A stretch of DNA of 64,000 bases from Thelephora terrestris (Eukaryota; Basidiomycota; Agaricomycetes; Thelephorales; Thelephoraceae), in contig WIUZ02000016.1 of the NCBI GenBank assembly GCA_015956445.1, forward strand, positions 558,001 to 622,000. The letters run 5' to 3'. Position numbers and translations under genes: made by a program. The notes beneath the pieces are model-generated. The model saw only the letters and a list, made by a program, of their open reading frames with translations, had not been told where the DNA came from and searched no databases. Below, in pieces: positions 16,189-46,900 of this stretch. Position 1 is the first letter of the stretch. Every line of letters starts with the position of its first letter.

Positions 16189-18362
16189 ATGAAGCCGGTC
16201 TTCGATTGGCTGAGCCTCCTGCTTCTGATTCCGGGGGTGGTGGTCGGGTACAATAATGGACTCGCTCGAACCCCACAGATGGGGTGGAACACTTGGAACA
16301 GGTTCGGATGCGATATCGACGAGGAGCTCATCGTTGAATCCGCAAAAGTTGTGGCTGGGAGATTGGCGGTCTATGGGTACCAATGTACGCTTCATTCTCT
16401 GCACATCAATACACCCCGGACCCGAGTGGCAATTTTCGCTGATGTTTTCGAATGCAGATGTTGTGATGGACGATTGTCCGCGTTTCTACCAGCTTCAGCC
16501 CGCCGATATTGATATTTGAAGTCGTTCTATAGGTTGGCATGATGTCTCGAGACACCCAGACACCGGTGCCCCTAGGCCGGACCCTGAAAGATTCCCAAGA
16601 GGGATTAAGGCCGTTTCCGACGAAGTGCACGCCCTTGGACTGAAGGTAACTGTTTCGAAGCTCAAGTCATTTCTCTGCAAGTGTTGTTTAACATTGGCGC
16701 GTTAGATTGGAATCTATAGCAGCGCGGGAATGTAGGCGTCGAAGCTATGCTTGTCGGGAATCTATTTGACTGGAATCGAAAGGTATACCTGCGCTGGTCG
16801 GTTCGGTTCACTAGGGTACGAGGAAATCGATGCCAAGACCTACGCCGAGTGGGGAATCGACTATCTTAGTGAGTTATCAAGTGACTCCTTTCCTCTGGGT
16901 AGAGTGCTGAGCAGCCCCCCCCCCCCCCCCCCCCCCCCCCCCACCAGAGTATGACAACTGTTTCAACGAGGGCCAGAGTGGGACTCCGCTCCTTTCGTTT
17001 AACCGGTACGCGATGATGTCTCGCGCACTGAACGCGACCGGACGTCCCATCTTGTATTCCATGTGTAATTGGGGTGAAGACCAACCATGGAACTTTGCAA
17101 CGGTCAGCGGTCAGAGTTTCAACTGCAGCGTGACTGACGCTAACTAGCTGTGGAACAGACCATCGCGAATAGCTGGAGGATGTCCGGGGACATAAGTGAT
17201 GTAAGTGTTCTTTTCCGAACACGGTCAGGTGGAAGTTTGCTGACCGCACGTTACTGTAGCGATTCAATGATTTTGACGAACGGTGTCCGTGCACCAGCAT
17301 GTTAGATTGCAAGCTTCCTGGATTTCGTGAGATCGTGATGGTGTTTGTCTCCGACCTTCTCGGGCTGACGACAATCGATTTTCCTGTCACCTTTAGACTG
17401 CTCTATGGCTCGCATAGTTGACTTCGCTGCTCCCCTAGGACAGAAGGCGGGCCCTGGACAGTGGAACGATCTTGATATGCGTGAGCCTCTTCCCAGGAAT
17501 CTTAGTACCCGATCTCATGTCGGAGTCCACAGTTCAGATCGGGTAGAAATCACGTCTCTCCTCCCTACTCCAACAATGCCTCTGACACTCGCACAGAAAC
17601 GGTGGAATGACGTTTGATGAATATGGTAAGCTTTACGCCTTTTGGTATGCATGATGGACCGCTCTTATAAAGGCCTTCAGTGACACACTTCTCGATGTGG
17701 GCGCTGCTGAAGAGCCCGTTGATACTGGGTAACGATTTGCTCAACATGGTGCGTGCTGTGGGATGCGAAGTAAACGCCCCATAGTATTCATTTCCGCTCT
17801 ACCCTCCAGTCGAACGAAACTTGGACCGTTATCACGAATACAGCGATCATCGCGGTAAATCAAGATCTGAATGGGCAGCCAGGGATACGGCTGTGGAAGA
17901 CGCTGGTCCCTGAGGGCGGCGACTTGCAGTTGTGGAGGAGTGAACTGGTAAACAGGCAAGGGAAATCCTGACAGGTACTCGGCCATTGCCTCATGGTCAT
18001 CTTCCTCAGCTCCTTCGCGGTCGCTCTCATGAACGCCTCTCCCGAAGAACATGTTATAGACGTTTCGTTTACGGACGCCTTCAGAGATATGGTATGTAGA
18101 GAACTCTTCTTGTTGGTTCGGTGAATTCGAGCTGATCCACCCACCCAAGGACAAGTACTGGTGGGAAGCCACCTACACCGTTTATGATTTATGGGAGAAG
18201 GACGGGGAAGGGGAATGGGGGCGGAGTCTTGGAACTATGTCGGGCGGTATACGAGGGGTCACTGTTGCAAGCCACCAGACAAAGGTCTGGAGGTTGGTTC
18301 CGGTTTCTCAGCCACAACGCAAGCGTGGAAAGCACGCGCATTGCTATCTTCCTCGACTTTGA
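16189..18362 (+). CDS. Secreted GH27 alpha-galactosidase, many small exons
   Basis: Extracellular enzyme releasing terminal alpha-galactose from plant oligosaccharides and galactomannan. Residues 1-20 ([20 protein letters not shown]) form a signal peptide. GH27 marks follow: [31 protein letters not shown] (nucleophile Asp), SWRMSGDI (acid/base Asp) and GQWNDLDM. Exons to 17748: 16189-16384, 16458-16475, 16533-16645, 16706-16731, 16783-16868, 16948-17102, 17159-17200, 17260-17326, 17397-17480, 17533-17542, 17597-17625, 17681-17748; the sum is a whole number of codons. Next is 17810 to about 18091, then 18150-18362 (ending [14 protein letters not shown]). Between 17948 and 18010 I could not find a splice that avoids the in-frame TGA at 17969-17971, so the C-terminal beta domain may be altered or the gene may be damaged. 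Confidence 0.85.
16915..16942 (+). repeat. 28-bp poly-C run next to a splice acceptor
   Basis: A pure run of 28 C lies inside the fifth intron of the alpha-galactosidase gene and ends only five bases before exon 6 (acceptor ACCAG). It replaces the usual polypyrimidine tract. Its exact length may be an assembly estimate. Confidence 0.9.
17533..17542 (+). other. 10-nt microexon of the alpha-galactosidase gene
   Basis: The ten bases TTCAGATCGG are flanked by CACAG and GTAGAA and by introns of normal size (52 and 54 nt). Including them restores the family-conserved stretch after NDLDM as LQIGNGGM (usual form LEVGNGGM) and keeps frame with the next exon. Skipping them breaks the frame. The broken copy at 35 kb keeps the ten bases (35381-35390 region) but its acceptor reads CACAA. 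Confidence 0.85.
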
Positions 18363-18712
18363 TTCTGTGTATCGTTCAATTGATGAACAGTGTCCGGACA
18401 CCAACCTGGGAGAATCTGGGAAATGGCCTGATGAAGCTGATTTACGCTTTCTCCAAAATTCGATCGGCACCAACGGAAGAGGGGACTCCCCTCGCTTGTC
18501 AGAGTCAGACTATCAGCCCTCTTGTCTCTCACCCCCCCCCACCTCTCGCCCTCTCAGTTTTTCTGCTGTCGCTTATCAATTTTGTGGACGGCAGGGTCAA
18601 ACTCCCTGTTTTGAAAATATCTGGTCCTGTGACAAATTTGAACCTGCCCCACGGTTCACGATTCCACCTTCCCCGCTACCTTCTGGTTTGAACCACAAGA
18701 ATTATTTAAGAA
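18363..18712. promoter_or_regulatory. Gap between alpha-galactosidase and FunK1 kinase
   Basis: 350 bp, including a C-rich run near 18531-18541. It presumably holds the promoter of the kinase gene. No separate gene is supported. Confidence 0.4.
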
Positions 18713-25220: not shown

Positions 25221-27985
25221 TTAAGCGTCGGCTGCATCTACGCCAGCAGGAGTCGTATCGTAGCGAACAATGAGACCTTCAAGCTCTCCCCTGAGACCAC
25301 GAGCCGAGTCGATCAGCATAGAATAACCCACATGTCCTCCCAACGTCTCGCCGTCGAATGTTGGAGCAACCCCGCTGGCACCCGATTGTTTATTCCTCGA
25401 TTTCTGAAAATCCTGCAAGCGATACTTGTGGCCCTCGCGGGCATACAAGCCTTTTTGAAAAGAGCTCTGAATGGACTCTATCCAATCCCGGAAATCTTCG
25501 AAGCTCGGAGATAGATCCAATTCCGCGGGGTCCCTCAAAAAACGATACTTGGCATCGGCAAGAGCCTCGTACAAAGGTTGATCAAACCACCGTGCGTAGG
25601 GCAGCCTTTTGATATCCGGTCGCATTCGCACCCCTCCTGCCTCCTTCTTCATGTCCTGAGGAATATGAATCTCGTGGTGGGAGGCCAGTATCAACATGAT
25701 GTAGAAAAGGGATTCAACATCATGCCTGTAAAGGTGGAGGTTCTCGGTTCCCTTGAGCAATTCGTACGCCATGTAGGGAGGGGTCCCGGTTCTCTGTTGC
25801 GAAGTGCTTTTGTAGTCGCCAGTTAAAGAAGCCGTCCATGATGAAAGATCAAAGTCTGTCAGAACTCCATAGACTTTCCCGTTGATCCTCCGATACATGA
25901 TGTTGTTGAGGCTGAGGTCGCGGTGCAGAATCCCGACTTTCTCACGCAGCCACCAGTGGACTAAATCAACGTGAGAGTGTGACAACGAGAAGATGAATGA
26001 AAGTACGCACTGCATGCAATATCTAGCAGGACCTGAGCGATTTCCTTCACGTCCGTCAACGTCTTGAGAGCATATAGGCGTTCTTGGACGAGGATCCGCA
26101 GGACGCGCCGTTCGTACTTGTATTCTTTCTCTGTCTCCACGAACTCGGCGCCCTCGAGCATACTGGCGACTTTCCCGTGCGTAGAATCCTTGTCGAAATC
26201 AACATCGAAGTCAAACAGGAGGCCAGGAAGGTGGTTGACAGCCCATTGGTCGGGGGTCCGTTTTGCTTCTTCTATCGCCTTCTTGAGGAATTCGCTTTCC
26301 GAGGTCCTGCGAGCGCCAGGCCAGCTGATCTTCACAACCAGGTCCTTGTCCTGCCACTTCGGAGACGTCGCGTGTAGCACCGCCGTCGCTCGGCCGACCA
26401 GCGAAGGCTCGTGAGAAATAACATCGCCATAGGTAAGCGTCAGAGATTTCCCATCTTTTTCGAGTTCCAGCTTCCTCCCCTTCTGGACGCTCAAAACCTT
26501 GGACTTCTCATTGGACGTAACCAGCTGCTGGTTGTCCTGAAAGAGTTTACTGCCGGTGAGGTTGTGGAGGATACCGTTGTCGCATAGCGAGAGACGGGTG
26601 AAGGCAATCATGATCGCGATCAGTTTGTCCAACCCATCTCCTTTGTCATTCGACGTAAACTTGATTGCGGATGAAACGAGAATGACGGAGCGGTTGGCGT
26701 GATACAGCTGGATGCGATCGCGGTCGATCAGGCCGATAGTTGCGTGGGAGCGGAAGGCGGGGATGGAGAACTGTTCCAAGAGGTATTTTCCGATTTGAAC
26801 GTACACCTCCTTTTGACGGTCTGTCTCTACCGTCCGAGGACTTGCTACGAGTTGACCGGACAGAACTTGATGTGTCTTTCCTTCGGTCGCTGCACTCGCG
26901 CCACCAGGGGTCGATTTTTGAGACTTCTTCGGCGCCTTGCGGCTCGTCCCGGACGACTCATCGGCAGGCCGCTTCACCGCTTGACTGACAGGTTGCGGTG
27001 GAGCGGAGGCAGACTCTTTGGGTGCATCCTTCTTTTTCGGGTGCCGCGAGTTCTTCGTAGATTCGGCATGGTTCGACATTGGGTCACATCCTTCTGTCTC
27101 CTTGTCATTAAAAGCCCGTCGGGAGAAGAAAGCTGCGAGCGTACCTTTCATCCGTAAACGCGGCATGTACGTTCCATCCACCAGGGCAGTGTTGAAGTGC
27201 TTAACTTCTAGAACCTGCAGAGGATGTGCCCAGGTGATAAACGACGTATCGAGCTGCCCATTCTCCCTCTCCTCCGATTTGAGCTTGTTGTAGCGGTCCT
27301 CGTGGAGAGCGATGATATCCGGCGAGAGATTGGCTTTGTCAAGTACCCCATGGTAAAGCTTTTGGGGGTCGTTCCTGATGAACCGTTGGGGGGTCTTTGG
27401 CTTGACGGCGTCCACTGTGGACTTGCAGGTGACTTCGAGAAGGGAGTTGATCATCTTCACCAAGGGTCCGTATAACGCATCCTCCTTGAAACCTGTGGCT
27501 CCGCACTTCTCGGAGTAAGCCGAAAGGCAGGCGTCAAAATGCTCGTTGAGTTTGACTTCCTTGATCGCCTCTGCCCATTGGGACTTCCAATCGTCGGGGA
27601 CGTGCAGGACCTGCTTCATGAAATCATCCATGCCCACGAAAACACGATGACGTTCAAAATCCTGAATAATAAATTGCCTGTAGTCGTCGCTGTTGTATTT
27701 TCCACCATCATCGGTGTCGACATCCTGCTTCTGTCGGATAGAGGACCCCTTTGCGATCGGCGTACTGTTCGGCGCAGAGTGAATGACAAAGCGGGATTGG
27801 CGTTTCGGGGTATCGAATTGAGACTTTGTAGGGCGAGGTTGAGAGCCCTCGACTGAGGGGGAGGGTGGTCGTATGGGTTTGGGGGCAGGCATCGGAGGGG
27901 GACGTGAGGGGTTTGTGGTGCTCCCCACGTTGCTTGGAGCCAGCTTATATAGGGAGACGAGTCCATGGAAGTCGACAAGAGCCAT
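25221..27985 (-). CDS. FunK1-type protein kinase, paralogue 2
   Basis: Three exons (27145-27985, 26011-27090, 25221-25960) give 886 residues in frame; the 54-nt first intron has no stop and is a multiple of three, so retention would still leave an open frame. After MALVDFHGLVSLYKLA comes a Pro-rich insert (RPPPMPAPKPIRPPSPSVEG). The kinase core has VVKISWPG, HRDLSLNNIMYR and TDFDLSSW, and a threonine-containing activation loop (QQRTGTPPYMA). The tail ends RYDTTPAGVDAADA. It is far closer to paralogue 3 (43.5 kb) than to paralogue 1. The promoter side is also duplicated with paralogue 3, so the copied unit exceeds the gene. Confidence 0.93.
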
Positions 27986-28593: not shown

Positions 28594-28667
28594 CGAGTGT
28601 TCTTTTCCGGACACGGTCAGGTGGAAATTTGCTGACCGCACGTTACTGTGGCGATTCAATGGTTTCG
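28594..28667 (+). pseudogene. Broken alpha-galactosidase copy, left part
   Basis: These bases match the intact gene from about 17205 through the following splice site into exon 8 (GATTCAATG). The match begins abruptly inside an intron, so the 5' half of this copy is missing. The exon is interrupted at 28668 by a transposon and resumes at 35123. Confidence 0.85.
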
Positions 28668-29534
28668 TATGCCGGTCAAAGTGCACAAAAAATAAATTCA
28701 CCCGCGCGATGCAACCACTTCGCGCGAAACCTGTCACCCCGCACGAAACTCAACACTCACCTCGCGCGAAACTCGTCAGCCGCCTCGCGCGTTTTATCTC
28801 GCACCTCGCACGAACAGTGAGAGACCCCCTAAGGGGAATTTCGACCCTTGTCCAGGCAAATGCAAAGGCAGGCAGACTTTTCCGCCGGTTTGTATGTTGT
28901 ATAGAGGTAGTTTCGGGGCAGTATTCCCATTTTTCTGGGCTTCGGAACGGCGTCGGGATTTTCCGAGACCCGTGATCCGCTCAACATCGCCGCAAACCGA
29001 CATTGGGAAACCCACCGGGGCGTTACTTATGTTGTTGCTGAGACTCCTATTATAATATGTTCGAGTCCATATTTTTACCCCTCTAAGTCTCGTGATACCC
29101 TTCCTATGTTTGTTTTTATCTTATGTTATTTTTGACATATATTAGCAGTTAGAAGGAGTGCGTGGGATTGTGTCTAGATAGAAAACAATCTCAGTGCAAA
29201 GAAATAAGAGTAACACCGAGGGGTCGAAGCGGGTGAACCATAGCGGGGTTATCTACTGAGCGGGAAGCAGAATGACTCAGAATGGGATGCAGTCAAGGCG
29301 GAAAACGGCCAAACAAATGATAAATAATATGTCGAAAATAACATAAGATAAAAACAAACATAGGAAGGGTATCACGAGACTTAGAGGGGTAAAAATATGG
29401 ACTCGAACATATTATAATAGGAGTCTCAGCAACAACATAAGTAACGCCCCGGTGGGTTTCCCTATGGCGGTCGAAGTGCACAAAAAATACTTTCGCACGC
29501 GCGATGTACTCACCTCGCACGAAAGTCAGCACCT

Positions 29535-29743
29535 CGCACGAAACCCGTCGTCGCACCGCACGAAACCCGTCGTCGCACCGCACGAAACCCGTCGTCGCAC
29601 CGCACGAAACCCGTCGTCGCACCGCACGAAACCCGTCGTCGCACCGCACGAAACCCGTCGTCGCACCGCACGAAACCCGTCGTCGCACCGCACGAAACCC
29701 GTCGTCGCACCGCACGAAACCCGTCGTCGCACCGCACGAAACC
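29535..29743 (+). repeat. 22-bp tandem array in the left end of the inner element
   Basis: Nine uniform copies of a 22-bp unit beginning CGCACGAAACCCGTCGTCGC, plus a partial tenth. The right end of the element holds only about one unit in inverted orientation (34680-34710), so the array expanded on one side. Related CGCACGAAAC and CGCGCGAAAC motifs recur in the outer element's arms. Such subterminal repeats are typical transposase-binding arrays. Confidence 0.9.
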
Positions 29744-29832
29744 TTGTCAATTGTATCGCACGTTCTGTCTTGTCGCACGTCCGGGTGTACACCTCACGCG
29801 TTCAACATGATTGGAGAAGGAAATAGTGTCAA

Positions 29833-30829
29833 TTACAAGCTGAGCTTGGCCAATGCAGCGGTAGATACTTTATGTACGTAGTCAAAAGCGTCACCCTCGA
29901 TGGTCCTTTCAACCGTCAACTCAAGACAACGCTTGGACATTCCAGGCACAACCAGTCCCCTGATGGCGTCTGCTGCTTGATAAGGCTGAAGCTGGAACAA
30001 AGGGTCAACGTGCACCACCTTACGGCCGATGGCTAAGATCCATGCGGCCATCCACGCCTCGCTGCACTTTTCTCGTTGGTGTCGTCCGCAGTTTTCATGG
30101 TGGCTAACAGGAGGGGGAAGGGTGGCAAGCCGACGTTGTTCGCGGGAGATGATGTCCCGTGTTTTTATAACGAGATCAACAATCTCTAAGGACAGGTCAT
30201 AGCAAGCGAGGAGGGGGAGGTCCCCGAGTTTCCAATCTGTGCTGACGAGCACGTCAAATGCCGGGCGAGTCCACTGGGGGACATTGTACTTAATCGAAGC
30301 GTAGAACTTGAGGAGATTTGAGAAATTCGTGCTGCGGTCCCCAAGATAATAAATTGCGCGCTCCCTGCCATCTTCCGATCCCCATCTCGTCGACAGCTTA
30401 AGAACCGAAAGGAGAAAAGGAACGGGATAAGGCGGTGCAGTCCACCTGGTGTGTCACTCAGCTAAAAACATATGTGGATGAGAAATGAGAACGCACTGGC
30501 CATAGATATGTTTGATCAGTGCCTCGAAGTCCTCGCGGACTGCAATTCCGTCATCAATCTGAACGGCGTGGTTGTCATCTTGGCCATCCTCAGGTTGGCG
30601 CTGACCATTTGACATCATGAACATCCTGCCAAAAAGGTCGAGCCGTGCGGCCAAAACTGACTTATGAAGTCGATAAAGAACGTTGGAAACCTGTCAATGG
30701 CGGCGCTCGCATCAGCGGTTAGGGCAACTCGGTAAGGGGAGAAAACGAGCGGACTTGGAATACAACATTTCCGTCGGTGTAGTAGAACTCTAGGGACCTG
30801 ACAGGTGGAGTTGGGGGTGGTAGATCCAT
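29833..30829 (-). CDS. BTB/POZ-domain protein carried by transposon
   Basis: Three exons (30755-30829, 30497-30690, 29833-30445) join in frame to 293 residues. The start MDLPPPTPPVRSLEFYYTDG leads into the BTB fold: DGNVVFQVSNVLYRLHKSVL, then ARLDLFGRMF, a variable acidic loop, REDFEALIKHIYG and PYPVPFLLSVLKLSTRWG. The second half is the extension common in fungal BTB proteins (YASIKYNVPQWTRPAFDVLV) with a CGRHQREKCSEAW Cys/His patch and VVPGMSKRCLELTVE near the end. BTB proteins usually dimerise or recruit cullin-3. The coding frame is open throughout. A host-derived passenger or an element-encoded accessory factor are both possible. Confidence 0.82.
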
Positions 30830-30897
30830 GCAGGACTTGCTTGGCTAGCCACATCTTTATATGACAGGGTCAGACGAGGTTGAATGATCGACCGACC
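30830..30897. promoter_or_regulatory. 68-bp divergent promoter inside the transposon
   Basis: The start codons of the BTB gene (30829, minus) and the integrase gene (30898, plus) are only 68 bp apart. The gap contains CTTTATATGA, a plausible TATA-like element. Both genes must share this control region. Confidence 0.6.
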
Positions 30898-32844
30898 ATG
30901 GCCCTTCCACCAGTCCTTCCATCACCACCCACTCACCTCGAGCCCGATGTGCTCCGTGCGAACGAAATCCTTGCGAAAGGGTACCACATGGCTCGAAATA
31001 TCCTACAAATTACACAACCCGACCTCCACCAAGTCCATTACCACCGGGAACGCATCCTGTCAGAACTTATTCCGCTTCTTGACCTCGTGCTGCAAACCGC
31101 TTCCGATGCGGCTACATGTTCCTGGTGTCACGCAGTTACTGTCATCATTGCGGACTTATTTAATCAGCTGACTGAACGCGAGGCCTCAGCACAACATAGG
31201 TGCGTAATCTCACATGCCTTCGATAACAACTAGAATGGACGTTGACAAATGTTCGGCAGTGAAAATACCTCCATCGCTGCTGTCCACCCGGTGACAGTCG
31301 AGCGCCATTCATGCGAAAGAGGCCGCCCCCGTAAGGTCATTGACGCAGCATATCTGCGGGAGGCGATGCACCCATCGCGGGGCATCTCGAAGACTCAACT
31401 TGCCATGGCTCTGGGGATCCACAGAAACACATTGAAGAAGAGAATGGATGAGTCCGGAGTATACTACAAGTACTCGTCCATTGAAGATCGAGACCTTGAT
31501 GCACTAGTCAAGGCATACAAGGATCAAAAACCCGATGCGGGCTCCCGCTACGTTCGCGGCCACCTCCGTTCAACTGGAGTACGTGTGCAGAAGCAACGCG
31601 TCTTGGACTCAATGAAGCGTGTCGACCGCATTGGGCGGTTCATCCGAAGGCGCACTGTGATTCGTAGGCGAAAGTATTTCAGCTCCCGTCCGAATGCGCT
31701 GTGGCACTGTGACGGGCACCACAAGTTAATCAAATATGGATTTGTTATCCATGGATTCATTGACGGTAACTGCCGCACGGCACGTTCTGATTTTACTCTT
31801 GTGTCTCAATTCTCAGTCTGATCATGACTTCAGATCACCGCCCTCCGTGCAAATACAAATAACTATGCAAGCACGGTCCTTGAGCTTTTCCTCTTTGCTG
31901 TGGCGATATACGGCCATCCGTCTCGTGTTCGTGGAGATCGTGGTGGAGAAAATGTCCTTGTTTCAGCTTACATGATTATGAAACGTGGCCCGAACCGGGG
32001 GTCATTTTTGTGGGGGAGGTTAGTGACATCAAGCACATACGTGTATTTATTTCTGATGCCGCACTCTTAGCTCCACTCACAATACCCGTATTGAGAGATT
32101 GTGGGTGGAGGTTGGCCGAAATTTCTGCCGCAGCTGGCGCGCCTTTTTTGGTCGCCTTGAAGACCAATTTGGGTTGGATTGCTCCAGACCCAATCACATA
32201 TGGCTCCTTCAAACCCTCTTTCTTGACGACATAAACACTGATTGTGATTTGTTTGTTCAAGAGTGGAACTCGCACCCGATATCTGGTCCTGAAACAAATG
32301 ACAGGAGTCCACGTGTTTGTTTCCAAAAAGATTTCATCAGCACGCTCATCTAAAGCCAGCACAGGACTTACGTTTTCTTCGACAAACCCAGCTGGGCATT
32401 TACAACGAGGACGATTGCGAAGGTGTTCACCCTGATACTATTCAGGAGTACTATGGTACAACTCAAGATCGTGTTCAGCATCGGGTGGGCCAAACCGGTG
32501 CTGGCCATCCACCCGAAGAACTTGACCTCGTCAATGAAGTAGTCCAGGATCAGGACTTGGACATCCGCCATGATTCCATTCCCACTGCCGACCATGAAGC
32601 ACCACCGATGCCACCTGAACACTTGACACTATTTTTGAACTGTCTGGCTTCCCTTCAAAATGATAATCAAGGTGATCTTTTACGTTCAGTGGCTGGTGAA
32701 CTTTTCGTGTGGGATCCGGTGGAAGTGATGAAGGTTGGCCGCCGACGGCAGAAGGAACTGGTTATCTCCCTCGTGGATGCTGCATGGGAGAGAAGGGCCC
32801 TCATATGGCTAGCAGCGATTCGCGTATTAGATAGTCTTTTATAA
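30898..32844 (+). CDS. Integrase-type transposase (rve core)
   Basis: Probable transposase of the inner element. Exon 1 is 30898-31199 (MALPPVLPSPPTHLEPDVLR). A second exon from 31260 has a helix-turn-helix-like segment (ISKTQLAMALGIHRNTLKKR) followed by the integrase core. The acidic triad is visible: LWHCDGHHKLIKYGF (first Asp), SRVRGDRGGENV (second Asp) and HNTRIERLWVEVG (Glu), then INTDCDLFVQEWNSHPISG. A C-terminal part with LGIYNEDDCEGVHPDTIQEY runs to the stop near 32844. Similar integrases are common in Agaricomycete and fish genomes. I did not close all exon joins between 31770 and 32350. Confidence 0.75.
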
Positions 32845-32892
32845 ATACCTCTGTGGGCGATGCAAGACTCCCGCCACCTCCCCCTCTCAGGT

Positions 32893-34382
32893 CATGCATT
32901 GCTGCTCAGCCTTAATCGGCCGTTTGCCATGCCCCTGCAACAGGTTCCAGGGTGGGGCCAACGCAAATGTCTGTGACAATTGCGTGCACTCGTTGTCCCA
33001 TCACGTCCTTCCAACTTCTTCCGATCCAAAACCTGAACCAAGTGCCCAGGCGATTGGTCAAACCCCTCTGCAGGCTCGGTCGGTCACGTCTCTTTTCCAG
33101 TCGCTTCTTAGGTCGACACCAAGCGGGTCACTGGCCATTCAAGAAACATCAGCTGGACTTCGTAAATCCGGAACTAATATCACGGCCGTATGTCTTGGTC
33201 ATATTTTATCGAACGACCTCTAACTCCTATCATAGAGTTCTTCTCGTCAACGAGGACAGTCGATACGTCAGACAAGCATTCAAGCCAAGAACACAAACAC
33301 AACCTTCCGATTCCGTTCAGTTGTCTTCGTTTCGTGTGGCCTTGAGGCTGATGAATCAGTGAGCATCTTTGTCTATGTCTCAGAGGAAAACACTCTCTGA
33401 TTGTAGCACGTTATAGTCAGGAACAGTTGCGCTCAAGTGCAAAACTCCCCTCCTCAATAACCACATGATACAGATTGCGATCCGAAATGGTCTCGGGATC
33501 ACCGCCCCGAACGAGCGCAACCTTTTCGAACTAGACCGCAGTGGTTCCTTGCCGGACATGAACAACTTTCTACGACCTCGAATGCCAAAGCTATTCAAAC
33601 ATTTCGCCAAGACTAACCCTTGGATTTCGACGATCAACACTCCAAGCTGGGTGGATGGCGATCGTCTGTGGCCATATGTGCTATTAGCTCGGGACAGTCG
33701 TAGCCTTGTCCCTGCAATCTTGAATGGGCACACTGACCCTACTGTTTCCGATTTTCGAGACAACAGCGGAAGGATAAGCTGCCCCGATGGAGAGCGGGTC
33801 GTCTTCCTTGGTAAGGGTTATTCGCCAGCCCAGGTGGCTCATGTGATCACTTACTTGTTGTGCTGCAGCTGCGGTTCAGCCTATTAGCGAGAAAACAATG
33901 TCAAAGTGGGCAGTCTCATCAAGTCCTGGTATGTTGATTATCCTTTCTGTCTCCTATCGCTGACGACACTCTCGTAGAGGACGAACTGACCGGTTCGAGC
34001 GAAGAAGATATGTCAATCGAGGTCATCAGCCCGCCTCGCCGACCCGTCACCCGTTCGGTCTCTGCAAAACGAGCCGCAGAGGAGGTGGAACTTGAAGACA
34101 ACGATGCTCTATTTATTTCTTCCCCGCCACGTCCCAGGAAGGTCCGGAGGGTTACTGGGATGTCTGGTGCGTCATGTTTCATTTCCTGTGGTGATCGCTT
34201 TTGACCAGGCTTCAGGAGAATTTTCGAGCAATGCTCCATTGTTTGCGTGCTCCCAAAGCCCTGAGCCGATCACCGGGGGCGGTACTATCTCTGACGCAAT
34301 AGGTACAGATGTACCCTCCCACCTTGACAAGGATTACTTTGAATCAGAGAACCCTTGGGAGGAGATTATCGCATACTTTTAA
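32893..34382 (+). CDS. Second transposon gene or 3' part, unrecognised
   Basis: Open segments downstream of the integrase include about 33465-33880 (MIQIAIRNGLGITAPNERNL; ILNGHTDPTVSDFRDNSGR) and 33980-34160 (MSIEVISPPRRPVTRSVSAK), with an acidic nuclear-protein-like composition at the end (AAEEVELEDNDA). A Cys/His stretch near 32900-33000 may be a zinc-binding motif. Whether these are exons of a second gene or of the same transcript as the integrase is not settled. Confidence 0.4.
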
Positions 34383-35122
34383 TTCCACAAACACGGACTG
34401 AAACAACCCTTTTGTTCCTACTTTCCCTCCCTACCCTTTCTATCTTAATTCACCCTGGTTTAATGACCGTGGCAAACACCTCTTTCCGGCTAGATTACTC
34501 TTTTACACCCCCTACGCCGTAACTACTGTTGGCTCTAATCTCCTTAGCCATAGCAACCCTTATCCTACCTGCTTTATTTGAATGTCCTACCCTCACGCGC
34601 GCGAGAATACAAGGTGTGCGACGTGACTGGCATGTTTTGTGTGAGGAGATTAACAGGCCTTGTGCGACATGATTGGTTTCGTGCGGTGCGACGACGGGTT
34701 TCGTGCGAGGTGCTGACTTTCGTGCGAGGTGAGTACATCGCGCGTGCGAAAGTATTTTTTGTGCACTTCGACCGCCATATTTCCCAATGTCGGTTTGCGG
34801 CGATGTTGAGCGGATCACGGGTCTCGGAAAATCCCGACGCCGTTCCGAAGCCCAGAAAAATGGGAATACTGCCCCGAAACTACCTCTATACAACATACAA
34901 ACCGGCGGAAAAGTCTGCCTGCCTTTGCATTTGCCTGGACAAGGGTCGAAATTCCCCTTAGGGGGTCTCTCACTGTTCGTGCGAGGTGCGAGATAAAACG
35001 CGCGAGGCGGCTGACGGGTTTCGCGCGAGGTGAGTGTTGAGTTTCGTGCGGGGTGACAGGTTTCGCGCGAAGTGGTTGCATCGCGCGGGTGAATTTATTT
35101 TTTGTGCACTTTGACCGGCATA

Positions 35123-36225
35123 GTTTCGGCGAACGGGTGTTCGTGCACCAGCAAGCTCCCTGGATTTCGCGAGATCGCGATGGTGTTTATCTCCGACCTT
35201 CTCGGGCTGACGACAATCGATTTTCCTATCACCTTTAGTCTACTCTATGGCTTGCATAATTGATTTCACTGCTCCCCTAGGACAGAAGGCGGGCCCTGGA
35301 CAGTGGAACGATCTTGATATGCGTGAGCCTCTTCCCAGGATGCCTCGTCTTAGTACACGATCTCATGCTGGAGTCCACAATTCAGATCGGGTGTGACTAG
35401 AGATCACTTCTCTCCTCCCTACTCCAACAATGCCTCTGACAATCGGGCAGGAACGGTGGAATGTCGTTTGATGAATAAGGTAAGCTTTATGTCTTTGGAT
35501 TTACATTATGGACCGCTCTTATAAAGGCTTTAGTGACATACTTTTGAATGTGGGCTCTGCTGGAGAGCCCGTTGATATTGGGTACATGGTCTGTGTCTTG
35601 CGGGACGCGAAGTAAACGTCCGATAGTATTCATTTCCGCTCTACCCTCTAGTAGAACGAAACTTGGACCGTTATCACGAATACAGCGATCATCGCGATAA
35701 ATCAAGATCTGAATGGGCAGCCAGGGATACGGCTGTGGAAGACGCTGGTCCCTGAGGGCGGCGACTTGCAGTTGTGGAGGACTGAACCGGTAAACAGGCT
35801 AGGGAAATCCTGACAGGTGCTCGGCCGTTGCCTCATGGTCATCTTCCCCAGCTCCTTCGCGGTCGTTCTCATGAACACCTCTCCCGAAGAACGTGTCATA
35901 GACGTTTCGTTTACGGACGTCTTTAGAGATACGGTACGTAGAGAACTCTTCTTGTTGGTTCGGTGGTTCATAGCTGATCCACCCACCCAAGGACAAGTAT
36001 TGGTGGGAAGCCACCTACACCGTTTATGATTTATGGGAGAAGGACGGGGAAGGGGTATGGGGGCGGGACTTTGGAACTATGTCGGGCGGTATACGAGGGG
36101 TCACTGTTGCAACTCACCAAACGAAGGTCTAGAAGTTGGTCCCGGTTTCTCAGCCACAACGCAAGTGTGGAATGCACGCGTCGCAATCTTCCTTGAATTT
36201 GACTCTGTATCATCGAATTGACGAA
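35123..36225 (+). pseudogene. Broken alpha-galactosidase copy, right part
   Basis: Matches the intact gene from exon 8 to its 3' end (17270-18365) with scattered substitutions and small indels. Recognisable pieces include [14 protein letters not shown] and the exon encoding TNTAIIA. The microexon survives as sequence, but its upstream acceptor has lost the AG. The final exon lacks the intact gene's reading frame after the WRLVP region. The in-frame TGA seen near 17969 in the intact gene is also present here (about 35808), so it predates the duplication. With the transposon insertion and missing 5' half, this copy cannot make enzyme. Confidence 0.88.
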
Positions 36226-37440
36226 CAACAATATGGCCACAGACGTGGAACCTGCTAAGCCACGGTAGCTTCTCAAATAGTCCGCGGCTATGGCCACAAC
36301 GTGAAAGCGGGTACGGTTCCAGAAGAACAATTCCAACCTTATGAGACATCGCACACTCATCGACCCGACGTCCTGTCCGACAGAGACGGCTAATGGAGAA
36401 TACACGGTTCGACGCCACTACTGGGGTTCCTCAATGAATTCTTCCCAAAATTTCTCCCCTCACTGTATCGGTGTCGACTGGGAGTTTGAACAGGAAGGGG
36501 TCGAATACGGCGAAGCTGGCTTTTCCCCTGATCCCGACTCCGGGCGGGGAAGAAGAGATGCGTGGAGGGCGTGCGGGTTGAGAGGTATCGAACACGGCCT
36601 TGAGAGGTTCTGTGTTGACCAGGGGCTGGGACGAAGGCCGAGCAACGGAACAAGAATGATGGGGTGATTTGGGTACGGTCAGGAAACACCGCAGTGCCCA
36701 CTATTTTTAAGCCATCGTACGGTGGTCACCGGATCGTCTAGGGCGTTGCGACGTTCTGTAGGCCCGATACCGCAACCCTCTGAGATGGGCGACAGGGAGG
36801 ATATAAATCCAACGGAATCTCTTGTGGAATCTCTTGTTCATTCTTCCCTGCGCTGGTAGATGGCTCCATTCCAATTGAATACATCACCTCCTCACTCTCG
36901 TCTTCTTGGCTACGGGTACAGATCAGTACGAATGGATTTACGCGTTGTCGGAACTATCTCACTTCCGATCGGCGTGAACTTCCTTTGACTAGCCGTCACG
37001 CGTAAAGGCGTAGATTCGGTTTGGTTGGGAGGGGATGAGGTGAACGTCGAGCAGGGAAAATGGGGGGGGGGGTCTCTGGAGCTCCTTGTACCAGTCGGGC
37101 GGCGTTGCGGGAGGATGTAGTACTTGTATTGATCCAGCCGACGAAGCACAAGCCCGTGGGTGTGTAAACGGAGATAGCGACTCGAAATGAGAAACGCGAC
37201 GAGGGACGAGGCCTACGGACCCAGCACTCGTCCCCAGTTGAGACGGCAACAGATGCAGGAAGGAAGGTGGAACATTCGTCGAAGGTTCAGCAGAGCACGG
37301 ATGAGGCTGACGGTCTGCTGCGGTGAATTTGGGCGCTTGAGCGATCACACCGCTTTCAGTTTCACCCAGTCCTATGCTCGCATGGGACACCTTGACGCCC
37401 CTCCGGCGCGCATCTCCAGCGTTCGGGTTTTCCCTCACCG
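36226..37440. other. Spacer with repeat R2 copy 2 and an orphan frame
   Basis: Contains repeat R2 copy 2 (about 36995-37125, matching 21284-21450) with an 11-G run at 37062-37072. On the minus strand 36438-36670 is open with coding-like composition (FAVFDPFLFKLPVDTDTVRG), but it has no start or partner exon that I can identify. Otherwise no gene is supported. Confidence 0.45.
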
Positions 37441-37446
37441 ACATTG

Positions 37447-40426
37447 TGCCGTACAACTTCCTCGCAGCTGCCACGCGTTTCGAAAACGGCCACCAATTCC
37501 TCACATCTGACGGAAGGGCGCGATAGGGCTCTTTCCTCGCTGGCCGCATCCATCGGAGCTCTGAATCTCGCTGAGCAGGACTCGGGCATCAGACCAGCCA
37601 AGACCGTTTTCGGTTCAGCCGGCGTTCTTTTGGACACGATCAGGGTAAACTCCCCGCTCTGCGATGATGACCTTGTTCATATTTTCTAGGACTCGGCGGC
37701 CAATGACCAAGAGTACGTCAAGCTTGGGCTGTCCTGCGCCAATGTATGTCGAGCGCTCGACCGGGGGTTGAATGGGAGACGAACGGAGGACCTCGGCGGA
37801 TACCTCCTTGGGATGATTGAGACGCTGACAACGTGAGTTGAACCAGCAACGAGTACGTCGAGCGACCCAGTTCCTGAGATACCAATCGCAGGACTGTGGC
37901 AATTATCCAGAAGGCAATCATCAAGCAGGGTAAACAAGGCCCAGCCTCACCTCCCTTCCACCCGAAGCACGATAAAGAGAAGATCGCCGCTTGGGAGAGG
38001 GACCTGGACAGGATTCTCCTTATCTTCAACGTGCGTTCAGCTTGCCCCGTTCGACAATCACTCATAGTTTCGCTTTCAGACCGAGTTGGCGATCGATACC
38101 CATGTGATGGTTGCGGGTACCTATAAAAATGTATTGGCGATCCATGAAGGTGCTCACTTGGTCAGTGTAACTTCCTCCCCCTCCCCGCCTACACAAGACC
38201 ACCAACCACCACGTGGGTCCAAGCTAGGTCAGCGACAACAAATACAATGATATCCATAGTCATGTCGCAAAAAATCTGAGATTATAATTCGATTATAATC
38301 GATTATAATTGGAGCCATTGGCGGGGCTCCACGGGTCTCTTTGATTAAAATTGATTATAATTACGTCTATTTTTTTTCCGACATTCTTATATCTTGATAG
38401 CACCCCTCCCGGAGAGTTACCTCCTCCAGCGCCGAAGGCCTTTTTCGGACGCGGTGCGCTAATCGAGGAGGTTGTCGGTCATGCCGAAAAGCTCGAGTCC
38501 ATCGCTCTCGTCGGTGCAGGGGGAATCGGGAAGACATCAATCGCCCTCACTGTCCTCGACGATGACCGCATCAAGGCACGATTCGGAGATAACCGTCGAT
38601 TCATTCGCTGCGAGCAGTTCCTCGCTTCGCGTGTTCATTTCCTCGCTCGGCTGTCCAAGGTCATCGGTGCGGGGGTCGAAAACCCTGAGGATCTGACACC
38701 CCTGCGTCCTCTTCTTTCCTCCAAAGGGATGATCATAGTTCTCGACAACGCCGAGTCTATACTTGATCCCCAGGCAACAAATCATGAAGAGATATACGCA
38801 GTGGTGAACGAACTATGTCAGTTCAAGACTGTGTGCCTCTGTATCACTTCCCGCATCACAATGGTCCCCCGGTACTGCAAACGCCCACGAATTCCAACAT
38901 TATCAACGGAGGCCGCGCGCGAAATCTTCTACGGTATCTACGGTAACGACGAGCGGTCTGAGACAATCGACAACCTTCTCCAGCGTCTGGACTTTCATGC
39001 TCTCTCGATAACGCTGCTCGCCACCGCCGCATCCGACAATGTTTGGGATCACGATCGACTGGCCAAGGAGTGGGACGAACGACGGGCGCAGGTGCTTCGG
39101 ACGGATCACAACGAGAGCCTAGCAGCAACGATCGAGTTATCACTCACCTCTCCCACGTTCCGAAAACTTGGCCCTGACGCCCATGACCTCCTCGGAGTGG
39201 TCGCTTTCTTTCCACAGGGTGTGGGTGAGAAAAACCTTGACTGGCTTTTCCCCACCATCTCCGGCAGAGCGAACATCTTTGACAAGTTCTGCGCTCTCTC
39301 GTTGACGCACCGAAGCAGTGGCTTCATCACGATGTTGGCGCCGATTCGGGACCACTTCCATCCCCGAGACCCAAAAGCGTCTCCGTTCCTCTGTGCAACC
39401 AGGGACCATTATTTCACCCGGTTGTCTGTCAATCCTGAACCTGACCAACCCTTGTTTGGAGAAACCCAGTGGATTGTGCGAGAGGATGTGAACGTTGAGC
39501 ACCTGCTCGACGTTTTCACGTCGATTGACACAAGCGCAGTCAATGTCTGGGATGCTTGCGGTAACTTCCTACACCACCTTCATTGGCATAAACCACGGCA
39601 AACCACGTTGGGAACAAAGATTCAAGGCCTTCCGGATGGTCATCCCTCCAAGGCTCAATGCCTGCTCAGGCTCGCACAGTTGTCCGGATCAACGAGAAAC
39701 CACGCTGAATGCAAATCTCTCCTTCTCCACACCCTAACCCTTGAGCGAGAGCGGGGAAATGACTTCGGGGTTGCTGAAACCCTACAACATCTGTCTTATG
39801 CAAATCGGAGTCTCGGAATTTATAAGGAAGGAATACAACAGGCGAAGGAAGCATTGGAGATATTTAACCGGCTCGGGGACGTGGGGGAACAATTAAATTG
39901 TCTGCAGAGCCTCGCTCGCTTGTTTCTTTTTGACAGCCGGCTCGATGCCGCTGAAGACACCGTGTCACGCAAGATCGAGCTTCTCCCGGAGAAAGGCCAA
40001 GAATTTCACCTCTGCCAATCTCATTCCCTTCTTGGCGAGATATATCTTCGCAAGGGAGAGAAGGAGAAGGCCGTTTCCCATTTCAAGACAGCCCTAACGA
40101 TCGCATCCCATTTCAATTGGCAAGTCGAAGTATTTTGGATTCATTACGAGATGGCAGCGATATTTCGCGATGAAGGGGAGTTCGACGACGCAAACGCCCA
40201 CATCGAACAAGCCAAATCGCACGCGGCTCACGATGCACACAGCCTGGCTCATGGGATGGAAATGCAGGCTGATATCTGGTATCGGCAACACAGGCTGGAT
40301 GATGCGAGGTCCGAGGCGTTGCGCGCACTCGGGACTTTTGAGAAGCTTGGTGCAGCGGAGGATGTGGGGCGCTGCCAATGTCTCCTCCAAATGATCGAAC
40401 AAGCTGGTCTATCTCGAGTGGATTAG
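37447..40426 (+). CDS. NB-ARC/TPR STAND protein (NLR-like)
   Basis: Signal-transducing ATPase resembling fungal NLR receptors used in non-self recognition. Exons: one ending 37644 (GIRPAKTVFGSAGVLLDTIR), 37690-37832, 37892-38030, 38080 to about 38160, and 38401-40426. The N-terminal helical region resembles other Agaricomycete NB-ARC/TPR proteins (YVKLGLSCANVCRALDRGL). The ATPase has a P-loop GAGGIGKTSIALTVL, kinase-2 GMIIVLDNAES and CLCITSR (sensor-like). After a winged-helix-like stretch come TPR-type helices (IYKEGIQQAKEALEIFNRLG; GEKEKAVSHFKTALTIA) to residue SRVD. The first Met is not located, as the exon ending at 37644 has no ATG. The large exon is open for over 670 codons. Confidence 0.85.
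38260..38370 (+). repeat. AT-rich GATTATAATT repeats in NLR intron
   Basis: The last intron (about 38161-38400, 240 nt) is several times longer than others in the window. It contains repeated GATTATAATT/C units at 38279-38310 and 38343-38362, separated by a GC-rich palindrome-like part (GGAGCCATTGGCGGGGCTCC). This looks like a small insertion or a foldback. Confidence 0.6.
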
Positions 40427-43160: not shown

Positions 43161-43367
43161 CTGCATCGAAGCAACCATAGCCTAGTATTGACTGGAGCAT
43201 TAAATAGGTGGGTTGCGGGTATCGAACATGCGGCGTGTACATGGGAAGCCAGCATAATAGAGGGTGGTCAGGGCGGAGCAGGAGGAGAGAACATGCGAAG
43301 GCCTGGAAAGGGTTCAACGACCCAAAGAAACAGAAAGTTGGGCGTGAAAAATTGTTTGATGGATACG
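43160..43367. repeat. About 208-bp insertion absent from the sister copy
   Basis: The sequence before (GTACACTGATTACG) and after (ACGGGCAGAAACCGACG) is continuous at 25050-25070 downstream of FunK1 paralogue 2. The intervening bases exist only here. Short similarity ATTACG/GATACG at the edges could be a target duplication, but no terminal repeats were found. Confidence 0.55.
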
Positions 43368-43523
43368 GGCAGAAACCGACGCAGTTGGGATTCGTACTAC
43401 CCCCTGGTTTATACTTGCGTCCAGTGGACAACTTCGTAAGCAGTCTCATTATGAACGCCCGTGCTACGTGAACAAATCTAAAATACATCTTTGGAACTTT
43501 ACAAGCATCAAGTAAGGAGGAAC

Positions 43524-46319
43524 TCAAGCGTTGGCTGCATCTACGCCAGCAGGAGTCGTATCGTAGCGAACAATGAGACCTTCAAGCTTTCCCCTGAGAC
43601 CACGAGCCGAGTTGATCAGCATAGAATAACACACATACCCTCCCAACGTCTCGCTGTCGAATGTTGGAGCAACCCCGCTGTCACCCGATTCCTCAAAATC
43701 CTCCAATTTAGACTTGTGGATATCGTGGGCAAGCACGCCTCGTCGAAAAGACCGATGAATGGACTTTATCCAATCCCGGAAGTCTTCGAAGCTCGGAGTC
43801 AGATCCAATTTCGTGCGGTAGTCCCTCAAAAAGGAAGACTTGAAATCGGCAAGAGCCTCGTACAAAGGTTGATCGAACCACCGTTCGTAGGGCAGCCCTT
43901 CGGCATACGGTCGCATTCGCACCCCTCCTGCCTCCTTCTTCGTGTCCTGAGGAATATGAATCTCGTGGTGGGAGGCCAGTATCAACATGATGTAGAAAAG
44001 GGATTCAACATCATGTCTGTAAAGGTGGACGCTGTCGGTTCCCTTGAGTATTCCGCGGGCCATGTAGGGAGGGGTCCCGGTTCTCTGTTGCGAAGCGCTT
44101 TTGTAGTCGCCGGTTAAAGAAGCCGTCCATGATGAAAGATCAAAGTCGGTCAGAACTCCATAGACTTTCCCGTTGATCCTCCGATACATGATGTTGTTGA
44201 GGCTGAGGTCGCGGTGCAGAATCCCGACTTTCTCACGCAGCCACCAGTGGACTAAATCAACGTGAGCGTGTGACAACGAGAAGATGAATGAAAGTACGCA
44301 CTGCATGCAATATCTAGCAGGACCTGAGCGATTTCCTTCACGTCCGTCAACGTCTTGAGAGCATATAGGCATTCTTGGACGAGGATCCGCAGGACGCGCC
44401 GTTCGTACTTGTATTCTCCATTCACGAACTTGGCGTCCTCGAACATACTGGCGACATTCCTGTGCGTCGAATCCGAGTCGAAATCGACATCGAGGTCAAA
44501 CAGGAGGCCAGGAAGGTGGTTGACAGCCCATTGGTCGGGGGTCAGTTTTGCTTCTTCTATCGCCTTCTTGAGGAATTCGCTTTCCGAGGTCCTGCAAGCG
44601 CCAGGCCAGCTGATCTTCACAACCAGGTCCTTGTCCTGCCACTTCGGAGACGTCGCATGTAGCACCGTCGTCGCTCGGCCGACCAGCGAAGGCTCATGAG
44701 AGATGACCTCGCCATAGGTAAGCGTCAGAGACTCCCCATCTTTTTCGAGTTCCAGCTTATTTCCTGTCTGAACCCTCAAAATCACGGACTTCCCATTGGC
44801 CATAGCCAGCTGCTGGTTGTCCTGGAAGAGTTTTCTGCCGGTGAGGTTGTGGAGGATACCGTTGTCGCATAGCGAGAGACGGGTGAAGGCAATCATGATC
44901 GCGATCAGTTTGTCCAACCCACCTCCTTCGCTATCCGACGTAAACTTGATTGCGGATGAAACGAGAATGACGGAGTGGTTGGCGTGATACAGCTGGATGC
45001 GATCGCGGTCGATCAGGCCGATAGTTGCGTGGGAGCGGAAGGCGGGGATGGAGAACTGTTCCAAGACATATTTTCCGATTTGAACGTACACCTCCTTTTG
45101 ACCGTCTGTCTCTTCCGCCCGACGACTACGACGTGCCCCGATTCGACCGTACAGAGGTCGATCTGTCCGATTTCCTTCGGTCTCTACACTCGCACCACCA
45201 GGGGTCGATTTGTAAGACTTCTTCTGCGCCTTGCGGCTCGTCTCGGACGATTCATCGGCAAGCCGCTTTACCGCTTTACTGAGAATTTCCGGAGGAGGAG
45301 CGGAGGCAGGCTCTTTGGTCGCACCCTTCTTTTTCAGGTGCCGCAAGATCTTCGAAGGACCGGCATGGTTCAGCTTCGGGTCCCGTCCTGATGTCTCCCG
45401 TCATTAAAAAACACCAAGAGAGGAAAGCTGCGAGCGTACCGTTCATCTGTAACCGCGGCATGCACGATCCATCCACCAGGGCGGTGTCAAAGTGCTTAAC
45501 TTCTAGGACCTGTAGAGGATGTGCCCAGGTGATAAACGACGTATCGAGCCTCCCATTCTCAACCTCCTCCCGTTTGAGCTTGCGGTAGAGGTCATCGTAG
45601 AAAGCGCCGATATCCGGCGTGAGACCGGCTTCGTTGAGTACCCCATGGTGAAGCTTTTTGGGATCGTTCCTGATGAACCGTTTGAAGGACTTCTGCTTGA
45701 CGGCCTCCAGCGTGGGCTCGCAGGTGACTGTGAGAATGGAATTGATCATCCCCACCAGGGGTCCGTACAACGCTGCCTCGTTGATACCGTTGGTTCCGCA
45801 CTTATTGGAGTAAAGCAAATGGTGGGTATAAAAGTCCCTGTTGAGTTTGACTTCCTGGATTGCCTCTGCCCATCGGGTCTTCCAATCGTCGGGGACGTGC
45901 AGGACCTGCTTCATAAAATCATCCATGCCCACGAAAACCCGATGACGTTCAAAGTCCTGAATGATATGCTGCTTGTAGTCGTCGGTGTCGGATTCTCCAG
46001 CGTCGTCGGTGTCGTATTCTCCAGTGTCGTCAGTGTCGTACTCTACAGCGTCGTCGGTGTCGAGATCCTGCTTCGAGGTCCCCTTTGCGATCGGCGTAGT
46101 GTCCGGTGCAGAGTGAATGACAGGGCTGGGTTGGCGTTTCGTGATATCAGATTGAGACTTAGTAGGACGAAGTTGAAAGCCCTCAACTGAGGGCGAGGGT
46201 GGCCGTATGAGTTTGGGGGCAGGCATCGGAGGGGGACGTGAGGGGTTTGGGGTGCTCCCCACACTGTTTCGAGCCAGCTTATATAGGGAGATGAGTCCAT
46301 GGAAGTCGAGAAGGGCCAT
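43524..46319 (-). CDS. FunK1-type protein kinase, paralogue 3
   Basis: Three exons (45440-46319, 44302-45387, 43524-44251) give 897 residues in frame. It is the close sister of paralogue 2: same Pro-rich N-terminal insert, same intron positions (first intron 52 nt, second 50 nt), VVKISWPG, HRDLSLNNIMYR and TDFDLSSW. Unlike its sister, the first intron contains an in-frame stop, so splicing is required. An acidic repeat expansion (EYDTDD units) lies at about residues 85-115. The linker has a novel EGNRTDRPLYGRIGARRSRR stretch. The tail ends DTTPAGVDAANA. High similarity including flanks indicates a recent block duplication. Confidence 0.93.
45976..46070 (-). repeat. 24-bp in-frame repeat in FunK1 paralogue 3
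   Basis: Four near-identical 24-bp units encode EYDTDDxG-type acidic repeats (VEYDTDDTGEYDTDDAGESD). Paralogue 2 has the equivalent of a single unit (DTDDGGKYNSDD). Confidence 0.85.
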
Positions 46320-46900
46320 ATATGAGTACTTTTTGGGAACTAGACAGATTCGGGGCGGCGAAGAGAGTGGAAGGGTTCGCCCGTGAACCGTGAGATGCGT
46401 CGGATTTCATCACGGGATCGATCGCCATGATCATTGAACAAAGGAACTCAACATTCATTCTCCAAACATGACCAAACAACGCCAGAGGGGACGAACGCAA
46501 CGAACCAGACGATGTCCAGGTGTTCTGTGCGCTCTGCAGAGCACGTATGGTGTTGTCATTCGTCTAGGTATCAATTCATCTTGCGGTACGCTTTTTTTCG
46601 GACGATGTATCGGGGTTTTTTTTGCAACGATACACGCCATCTCAAATCCCCCAGCGGTGGTAAGCCACCCATTTCAACTAGTCAAGCATCCGGACAATGT
46701 CGCGTGCATGGCTCTTTCACTTCTGGGGTCACCACTACTTGCCCAGATCCCGTTCCGTGGTCCACGGTCCACCACTCAAAGCTAGTTCGTGTTTCGGGCC
46801 TGGATTACCTGGTCACTGAAGCGGCCTCACGGACCGCTCATCGTCCAGGGAAGTTCGCGGAGACCATGGCATCGTGACTCAATCGGCTACCAAAAAAATC
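46320..46900. repeat. Duplicated upstream region of FunK1 paralogue 3
   Basis: Counterpart of 27986-28570, including GAACAAAGGAACTCAACATT and the stretch of T near 46590-46625. It holds the minus-strand kinase promoter. Confidence 0.75.

Follow-up and report, generated by a model that had tools for sequence, protein, structure and literature searches.

The finding of one transposon inside another, both lodged in what had been predicted to be a broken enzyme gene, raises the question of how the two elements are related and of what moved the outer one, which carries no gene of its own. The locus lies in the basidiomycete Thelephora terrestris, in a 64,000-nt stretch of contig C8 (C8:558001-622000, hereafter the window), and was analyzed against the source genome (40.6 Mb in 60 contigs, designated here by C numbers). 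The nested insertion is real, and every coordinate given for it was confirmed. The explanation proposed here, to which we assign a probability of about 0.82 when taken as a whole, including motif-based mobilization and a role for an accessory gene, is that the two elements are nested members of a single group resembling IS3EU, a eukaryotic transposon superfamily that has received little study. The outer element, which is short, near-palindromic and without coding capacity, would have inserted first, into what was left of the C-terminal portion of a duplicated alpha-galactosidase gene, and the complete inner element would have inserted later, into the right arm of the outer one. The DD34E transposase of the inner element would most likely bind the CGCRCGAAA motif repeated beside the ends, cut at TA..TA and join the ends to the two target strands with a 6-bp stagger, which would account for the 6-bp target-site duplications (TSDs), and a BTB/POZ protein encoded on the opposite strand would probably serve the element, for example as an accessory or anti-silencing factor. 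The activity of the elements, motif binding, cross-mobilization and the BTB role are what we infer from sequence comparison.

The outer element is delimited by two copies of GTTTCG (28662..28667 and 35123..35128) and ends at 28668 (TATGCCGGTC) and 35122, and the inner element is delimited by two copies of TTTCCC (29457..29462 and 34780..34785) and ends at 29463 and 34779 (TATGGCGGTC), both TSD sets being legible exactly where the original prediction had placed them. The outer element comprises a left palindrome arm of 473 bp with a TATGCCGG end and three subterminal CGCRCGAAA motifs (28668..29140, forward strand), a unique spacer separating the arms (29141..29326, forward strand) and a right arm on the reverse strand, divided by the insertion into an inner part finishing with the left inner TSD (29327..29462) and an outer part with a CCGGCATA end (34786..35122). 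Once the inner element and one TSD copy are removed, 1132 bp remain, made up of two 473-bp arms with two mismatches between them and a 186-bp spacer; among six reading frames scanned, none matched Pfam above the cut-off (best E-value 0.15), in agreement with the gene-less near-palindrome of 1.13 kb that had been predicted. The inner element (29463..34779, forward strand) spans 5317 bp and has TATGGCGG ends, 105-bp terminal inverted repeats and, on its left side, a 22-bp tandem array containing the subterminal motif (CGCACGAAACCCGTCGTCGCAC; 29535..29743, forward strand), which likely consists of transposase-binding sites. The predicted order of insertion is upheld by the position of the inner element within the right arm of the outer one and by the uninterrupted state of its insertion site in an outer-type copy on C14, where the same arm sequence is unbroken both at this site and at that of a second nest on C12. 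A palindrome arising purely by misassembly was rejected, the same palindrome being uninterrupted on C60 and C14 and nested on C12, and so was an origin of the outer element by simple internal deletion of the inner one, matching between the two being confined to the first ~110 bp.

The transposase gene of the inner element (31249..32844, forward strand; 479 aa) has predicted exons at 31249-31779, 31834-32018, 32071-32314 and 32365-32844, assigned with the help of two C23 relatives, and a further 5' exon is possible within 30880-31233. Its predicted product is free of stops and matches the Pfam domain rva_4 (E-value 2.5e-55) and, below the cut-off of that model, rve (1.7e-4), with catalytic residues D155, D212 and E247 in a D(56)D(34)E arrangement; the 5.3-kb inner element does carry the transposase expected of it. 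No HHCC zinc finger model matched the transposase, and N-terminal helix-turn-helix matches were weak. Over 150 codons compared with the C23 relative, nonsynonymous (dN) and synonymous (dS) divergence amount to 0.10 and 1.36, respectively (dN/dS ~0.07). The pieces scanned for a third gene at 32.9-34.4 kb gave no Pfam match above cut-off. IS3EU elements, of which Repbase held 45 families in 2022, are described in the excerpted account as having TA..TA ends, TSDs usually of 6 bp and no HHCC motif (PMC10045372), and the inner element, in which 6-bp TSDs, TA..TA termini and an integrase-type DDE transposase without HHCC finger are all found, best fits this superfamily by these features and by its rva_4 domain.

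The search for further copies with such ends and 6-bp duplications, suggested with the original prediction, was productive, and the prediction thereby withstood the refuting condition attached to it. The pattern TATGCCGGTCAAAGTGCAC, with up to two mismatches, occurs at 40 places in the genome and at none for a reversed control, and chance ends were rejected on this account; 35 of these places fit TATGSCGGTCRAAGTGCAC exactly. The eight exact TATGCCGG ends all belong to four short, non-autonomous copies of the outer type, located in the window and at C12:396398-398691, C14:302669-303799 and C60:409275-410406. Of ~1132 positions, 36-38 (3.2-3.4%) separate the window copy from the other three, which are set apart from one another by 2-6 (0.2-0.5%). 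Perfect 6-bp TSDs flank nine of the 14 elements with both ends (the outer, the inner and seven more), and TAT..ATA termini were seen in all 14. A preference for TTT/AAA in the TSDs (6/10, P = 2e-4; nine perfect TSDs and the left copy from C12, with C58, C60, C8:501238 and C56:1239113 left out) was noticed first and tested afterwards, and is a lead only. Among the kin elements, C56:1237779-1241612 is a scrambled cluster of three in which TACAAC flanks two ends facing apart, a layout resembling the outcome of a tandem duplication or end-swapping event. Another, at C11:76339-81549, has asymmetric ends, the TSD CATATC and a 3.66-kb insert that may be a long terminal repeat (LTR) retrotransposon, judging by solo-LTR-like pieces beside kin on C13 and C23. 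Near a damaged IS3EU relative on C23 there is also an inverted repeat (C23:855300-857746) with 1187-bp arms, 99.5% identical, containing CCTAAA/CCTAACC runs that resemble telomere repeats.

Several features link the mobility of the outer element to the group of the inner one. The CGCRCGAAA motif occurs three times at each outer end and, in the inner element, 11 times on the left and three times on the right, in constant sense relative to the end; elsewhere it is absent from the middle of the inner element and present twice in the remaining 57.5 kb of the window. Clustered subterminal motifs are typical transposase-binding sites, as in the Ac/Ds and CACTA elements. Furthermore, the first 27 bp of the outer and inner ends differ at two bases, their TSD length is identical, and both end types meet in a formerly autonomous relative on C23 that has lost its left end, the right end of which (C23:2685875-2685950) bears a TATGCCGG-type end, with one mismatch in 19, located 57 bp inside a TATGGCGG-type end. 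Because the same motif lies beside the ends of the outer element, a transposase of the inner element's group most likely moves both, a reading that we regard as fairly probable. The kinship predicted for the two elements is thus borne out by their ends and common motif, and the predicted mobilization of the outer element by the inner family is likely, with indirect support from the near-identical ends, the motif, the TSD length, the confinement of exact TATGCCGG ends to non-autonomous copies and the double end of the C23 relative.

Antiparallel to the transposase, the inner element contains a predicted BTB/POZ gene of 293 aa (29833..30829, reverse strand), with exons at 30829-30755, 30690-30497 and 30445-29833 and GT..AG introns. 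In comparisons of the inner element with its C23 relative, third codon positions are 53-55% identical and first and second positions 85-98%. The 58-codon BTB exon shows a dN of 0.06 and a dS of 1.16 (dN/dS ~0.05), values that are not computable for the long exon owing to a stop in the C23 copy, and the gene is under purifying selection. Full-length matches to its product were found only at IS3EU-type loci (17 loci scored) and none to host genes, places in the host genome matching the BTB domain only (best E-value 2e-6). Ten of the 15 matches to the first 91 residues (E-value up to 1) outside the element's own family coincide with PF00651 (BTB) places of this genome, which supports the BTB assignment. 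Among solved structures, the best match was the BTB domain of ZBTB5, with a non-significant E-value of 1.4, and a structure predicted for the 64-aa BTB exon showed two helices at a mean pLDDT of 63 and is given no weight here.

The same gene pair recurs in a second IS3EU-like family, represented by six loci with transposases 46-47% identical to that of the inner element. Five of them are bounded by paired TATCCTGTAC ends lying 14.0-20.9 kb apart (C3:296790-317701, C12:1687254-1703091, C23:1462492-1476504, C5:68141-83166 and C58:1739764-1753766), an end pattern that, with up to three mismatches, occurs at 18 places against one for its reversed control; the copy read end to end is that on C58. 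The TSDs are of 6 bp in three of the five copies (GATCAT on C3, GTGATA on C23 and GGCTAC on C5) and of 8 bp in the other two (CCGAGTGA on C12 and GTCAGCAT on C58), a mixture of lengths that looks unusual within one family. All five copies with both ends contain both genes, with the BTB homologue on the strand opposite the transposase, and the BTB gene of the sixth locus, on C24, is split into two pieces. At the seven loci measured, including those of the window and C23, a distance of 1.3 to 2.3 kb separates the midpoint of the BTB match from that of the transposase match, and the gene order is divergent in the inner element and convergent in the second family. The full-length BTB protein aligns to the five second-family copies from residue 23 to 279-288 with 23-24% identity (E-values 3e-8 to 5e-7) and, reciprocally, a 244-aa second-family piece (E-value up to 0.01) matches only its own copies, the inner element and C23. 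Because these reciprocal full-length matches are confined to IS3EU-type loci, the BTB gene is most likely common to both families by descent and, being conserved between two families and under purifying selection, it probably serves the element, its product acting for instance as an accessory or anti-silencing factor. With regard to further cargo in the 14-kb second-family element, the five frames scanned, of 35 listed, gave just the transposase.

Comparison of the outer-type copies shows that their arms have changed together. Between the window element and the C12 copy there are 36 differences over 1132 positions, 32 of them in the arms and four in the spacer, and 30 of the 32 constitute 15 exactly mirrored pairs, in which the identical change is seen on both arms; random placement gives 0.5 such pairs on average and a maximum of five in 20,000 trials. 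Changes restricted to one arm are found at positions 465 and 1027, and two of the three arm differences between the C12 and C60 copies are likewise mirrored. The mirrored differences therefore indicate that one arm served to overwrite the other once the copies had separated, through conversion or template switch, and we infer such arm-to-arm copying as their mechanism. As a general rule, arm homogenization was rejected: in the small TATGGCGG elements C8:501238, C59 and C56:1239113, the arms remain distinct, left arms grouping with left and right with right, and the elements on C16 and C58 have in common two distinct arms that are 4.6-4.9% apart.

Nesting within relatives is also recurrent, as four of the 14 elements lie inside kin. 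Besides the inner element of the window, which occupies an outer-type copy, these are an element at C12:397268-398423, likewise in an outer-type copy (TSD GAAAAA), one at C56:2291607-2292934, flanked by the TSD CACTGA and hosted by a derivative of the C11 element that arose by deletion, and the C60 outer-type copy. The last of these lacks a TSD and directly adjoins a small TATGGCGG element at that element's position 306, bases 1-305 being absent from the other side. The counts of such nests cannot by themselves separate targeting from survival.

A number of observations tell against the reading of the nest as an IS3EU-like pair with a BTB helper. The placement of the inner element in IS3EU is based on shared features and the rva_4 domain. 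The termini of the inner element (TATGG) conform to the TAYGG..CCRTA given for rust-fungus TET+ families, whereas those of the outer element (TATGC) and of the second family (TATCC) do not. No TSD was found in three of the 14 elements (C60, C8:501238 and C56:1239113), and in two it is imperfect, with five of six positions matching in the C12 outer-type copy and a shifted 5-bp match on C58. The first transposase intron (31780-31833) requires a GC donor, as opposed to the GT of two relatives, and the inner element may for this reason be inactive; the donor could reflect decay, or the intron could be one of the rare GC-AG type. The match of the BTB protein to PF00651 is marginal (20.8 bits for a cut-off of 20.5), the BTB exon of the C23 copy falls just under that cut-off (18.7 bits), and none of the second-family BTB-like pieces, the 244-aa one included, matches Pfam when scanned by itself. 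Each second-family BTB match, moreover, crosses one or two stops, introns or damage, and the selection estimate comes from one pair of copies with dS values above 1, near saturation. Lastly, none of the exact TATGCCGG ends located by the genome end search belongs to an autonomous element. This last point bears on an alternative in which a different autonomous family with TATGCCGG ends, lost or distant, mobilized the outer element and the inner one merely landed there, a minority possibility but a real one. It would fit the absence of a match between the outer arms and the inner element beyond the shared terminal stretch, as well as the related TATGCCGTTCG end borne by a third relative, damaged but retaining pieces of a transposase (C23:861782), and by elements on C11 and C56. 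On the other hand, roughly the outermost 390 bp of the outer element's arm align with the arms of small TATGGCGG-ended elements, and the common subterminal motif and the two end types of the formerly autonomous relative speak for mobilization by the group of the inner element. Transposons often capture passenger genes, and the BTB gene could analogously be an ordinary host gene captured by chance and drifting outside the transposon machinery. The genome contains at least 45 BTB matches and the Pfam score is borderline, but purifying selection on the gene, the pairing of a full-length homologue with the transposase of a second family and the finding of no host gene matching at full length make this capture unlikely.

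The mirrored arms and the kin nests are open to other accounts of their own. A single rebuilding of the palindrome by template switch, in place of repeated arm-to-arm gene conversion, has somewhat less than an even chance of explaining the mirrored changes: seven of the 15 fall inside 28 bp (150-177) and could represent a single patch event, and diverged arms persist in other small elements, yet the other eight are scattered across positions 195-421 and the spacer was kept between the arms with just four changes. Recurrent kin nesting, in turn, has an even chance of reflecting islands rich in transposable elements or a survival bias, with nests piling up where insertions do no harm, instead of a targeting preference. 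Leaving the window case aside, three of 13 elements lie in kin that amount to ~0.09% of the genome, which gives P = 2e-7 under uniform insertion and 2e-4 with a ten-fold regional bias; the enrichment weakens to P = 0.02 if kin lie in regions favored fifty-fold, and all these figures are rough, as the cases are few and were counted after the fact, and the kin total was summed by hand from pieces.

Beyond the nested IS3EU-like pair favored here, these patterns could be combined into an IS3EU-like two-gene system, made up of a transposase and a dedicated, ancestral BTB/POZ helper, that prefers its own non-autonomous palindromic kin, the arms of which are kept identical by copying, a synthesis that we consider rather doubtful. 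If it were true, the BTB protein might help, for instance, by bringing silencing factors into contact with a host ubiquitin ligase or by guiding where the element integrates. A conserved BTB/POZ partner would join alpha-kinase and TET/JBP as a new type of accessory protein in IS3EU, and suggests a possible ubiquitin- or chromatin-based counter-defense by a fungal transposon. The kin nests make self-targeting directly testable, and the palindromic kin provide a natural test case for the homogenization of long inverted repeats.

Miniature inverted-repeat transposable elements and foldback-type elements are short and non-coding, have ends like those of an autonomous family and are found nested. 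The outer element resembles them in all these respects and differs in its larger size (1.1 kb, with 473-bp arms) and in having arms that change together between copies. Among autonomous systems, the TET+ IS3EU elements of rust fungi have 6-bp TSDs and TAYGG..CCRTA ends, and in all their families the transposase and alpha-kinase genes run antiparallel with a TET/JBP gene lying between them, according to the excerpted description (Kojima 2025, PMC12730594). The inner element shares with IS3EU as there described the TSD length, the termini, an integrase-type DDE transposase and an opposite-strand second gene, which here is BTB/POZ and not an alpha-kinase with TET/JBP between; no alpha-kinase match came from the 11 frames or pieces of the inner element that were scanned. 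The TATGC ends of the outer element and the 6- or 8-bp TSDs of the second family also set them apart from that description. GingerRoot, compared by description only, is similar in its 6-bp TSDs, mostly TA..TA termini and related transposase core, but it was described from a clubmoss, and the published tree does not resolve it from IS3EU (PMC10045372). IS481EU likewise has a DDE transposase related to IS481/IS3, but its TSDs of ~4, ~15 or ~25 bp and TNT..AYA ends, as given in the same excerpt (PMC10045372), contrast with the 6-bp TSDs and TATGG/TATGC ends seen here. The excerpted portions of both accounts (PMC12730594, PMC10045372) contain neither a BTB gene nor palindromic kin with mirrored arms, nor TSDs of 6 or 8 bp as in the second family, and a literature search returned no link of IS3EU with BTB among the matches listed, which is weak evidence.

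The insertion site itself has a counterpart within the window. When the flanks of the outer element are joined with one GTTTCG, they align without a gap at the joint, and with 88% identity overall, to positions 17204-18389, the unoccupied equivalent of the site in a paralogous alpha-galactosidase (GH27) gene (16270..18389, forward strand), where the 6-mer at the duplicated site is ATTTTG. The interrupted copy consists of a left remnant with intron and exon start (28596..28661, forward strand) and a right part 88% identical to 17204-18389 (35129..36227, forward strand). Its homology to the paralogue begins just 66 bp upstream of the insertion (28596 corresponding to 17204), so that it lacks the part of the gene that yields the GH27 match; a genome search with the GH27 (PF16499) profile gave four matches, which lie in the paralogue at 16270-17105. 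The broken enzyme gene of the original prediction thus stands as an interrupted alpha-galactosidase duplicate, but a 5'-truncated one that need not ever have been a complete second alpha-galactosidase; the duplicate was perhaps broken already before the outer insertion, or perhaps lost its front later. Diverged copies of a fungal protein kinase gene (PF17667) region are found at 18713-20784, 25961-27985 and 43365-46904 of the window, one of them adjoining the truncated duplicate, and a STAND-type NTPase with tetratricopeptide repeats is located at 38351-40426.

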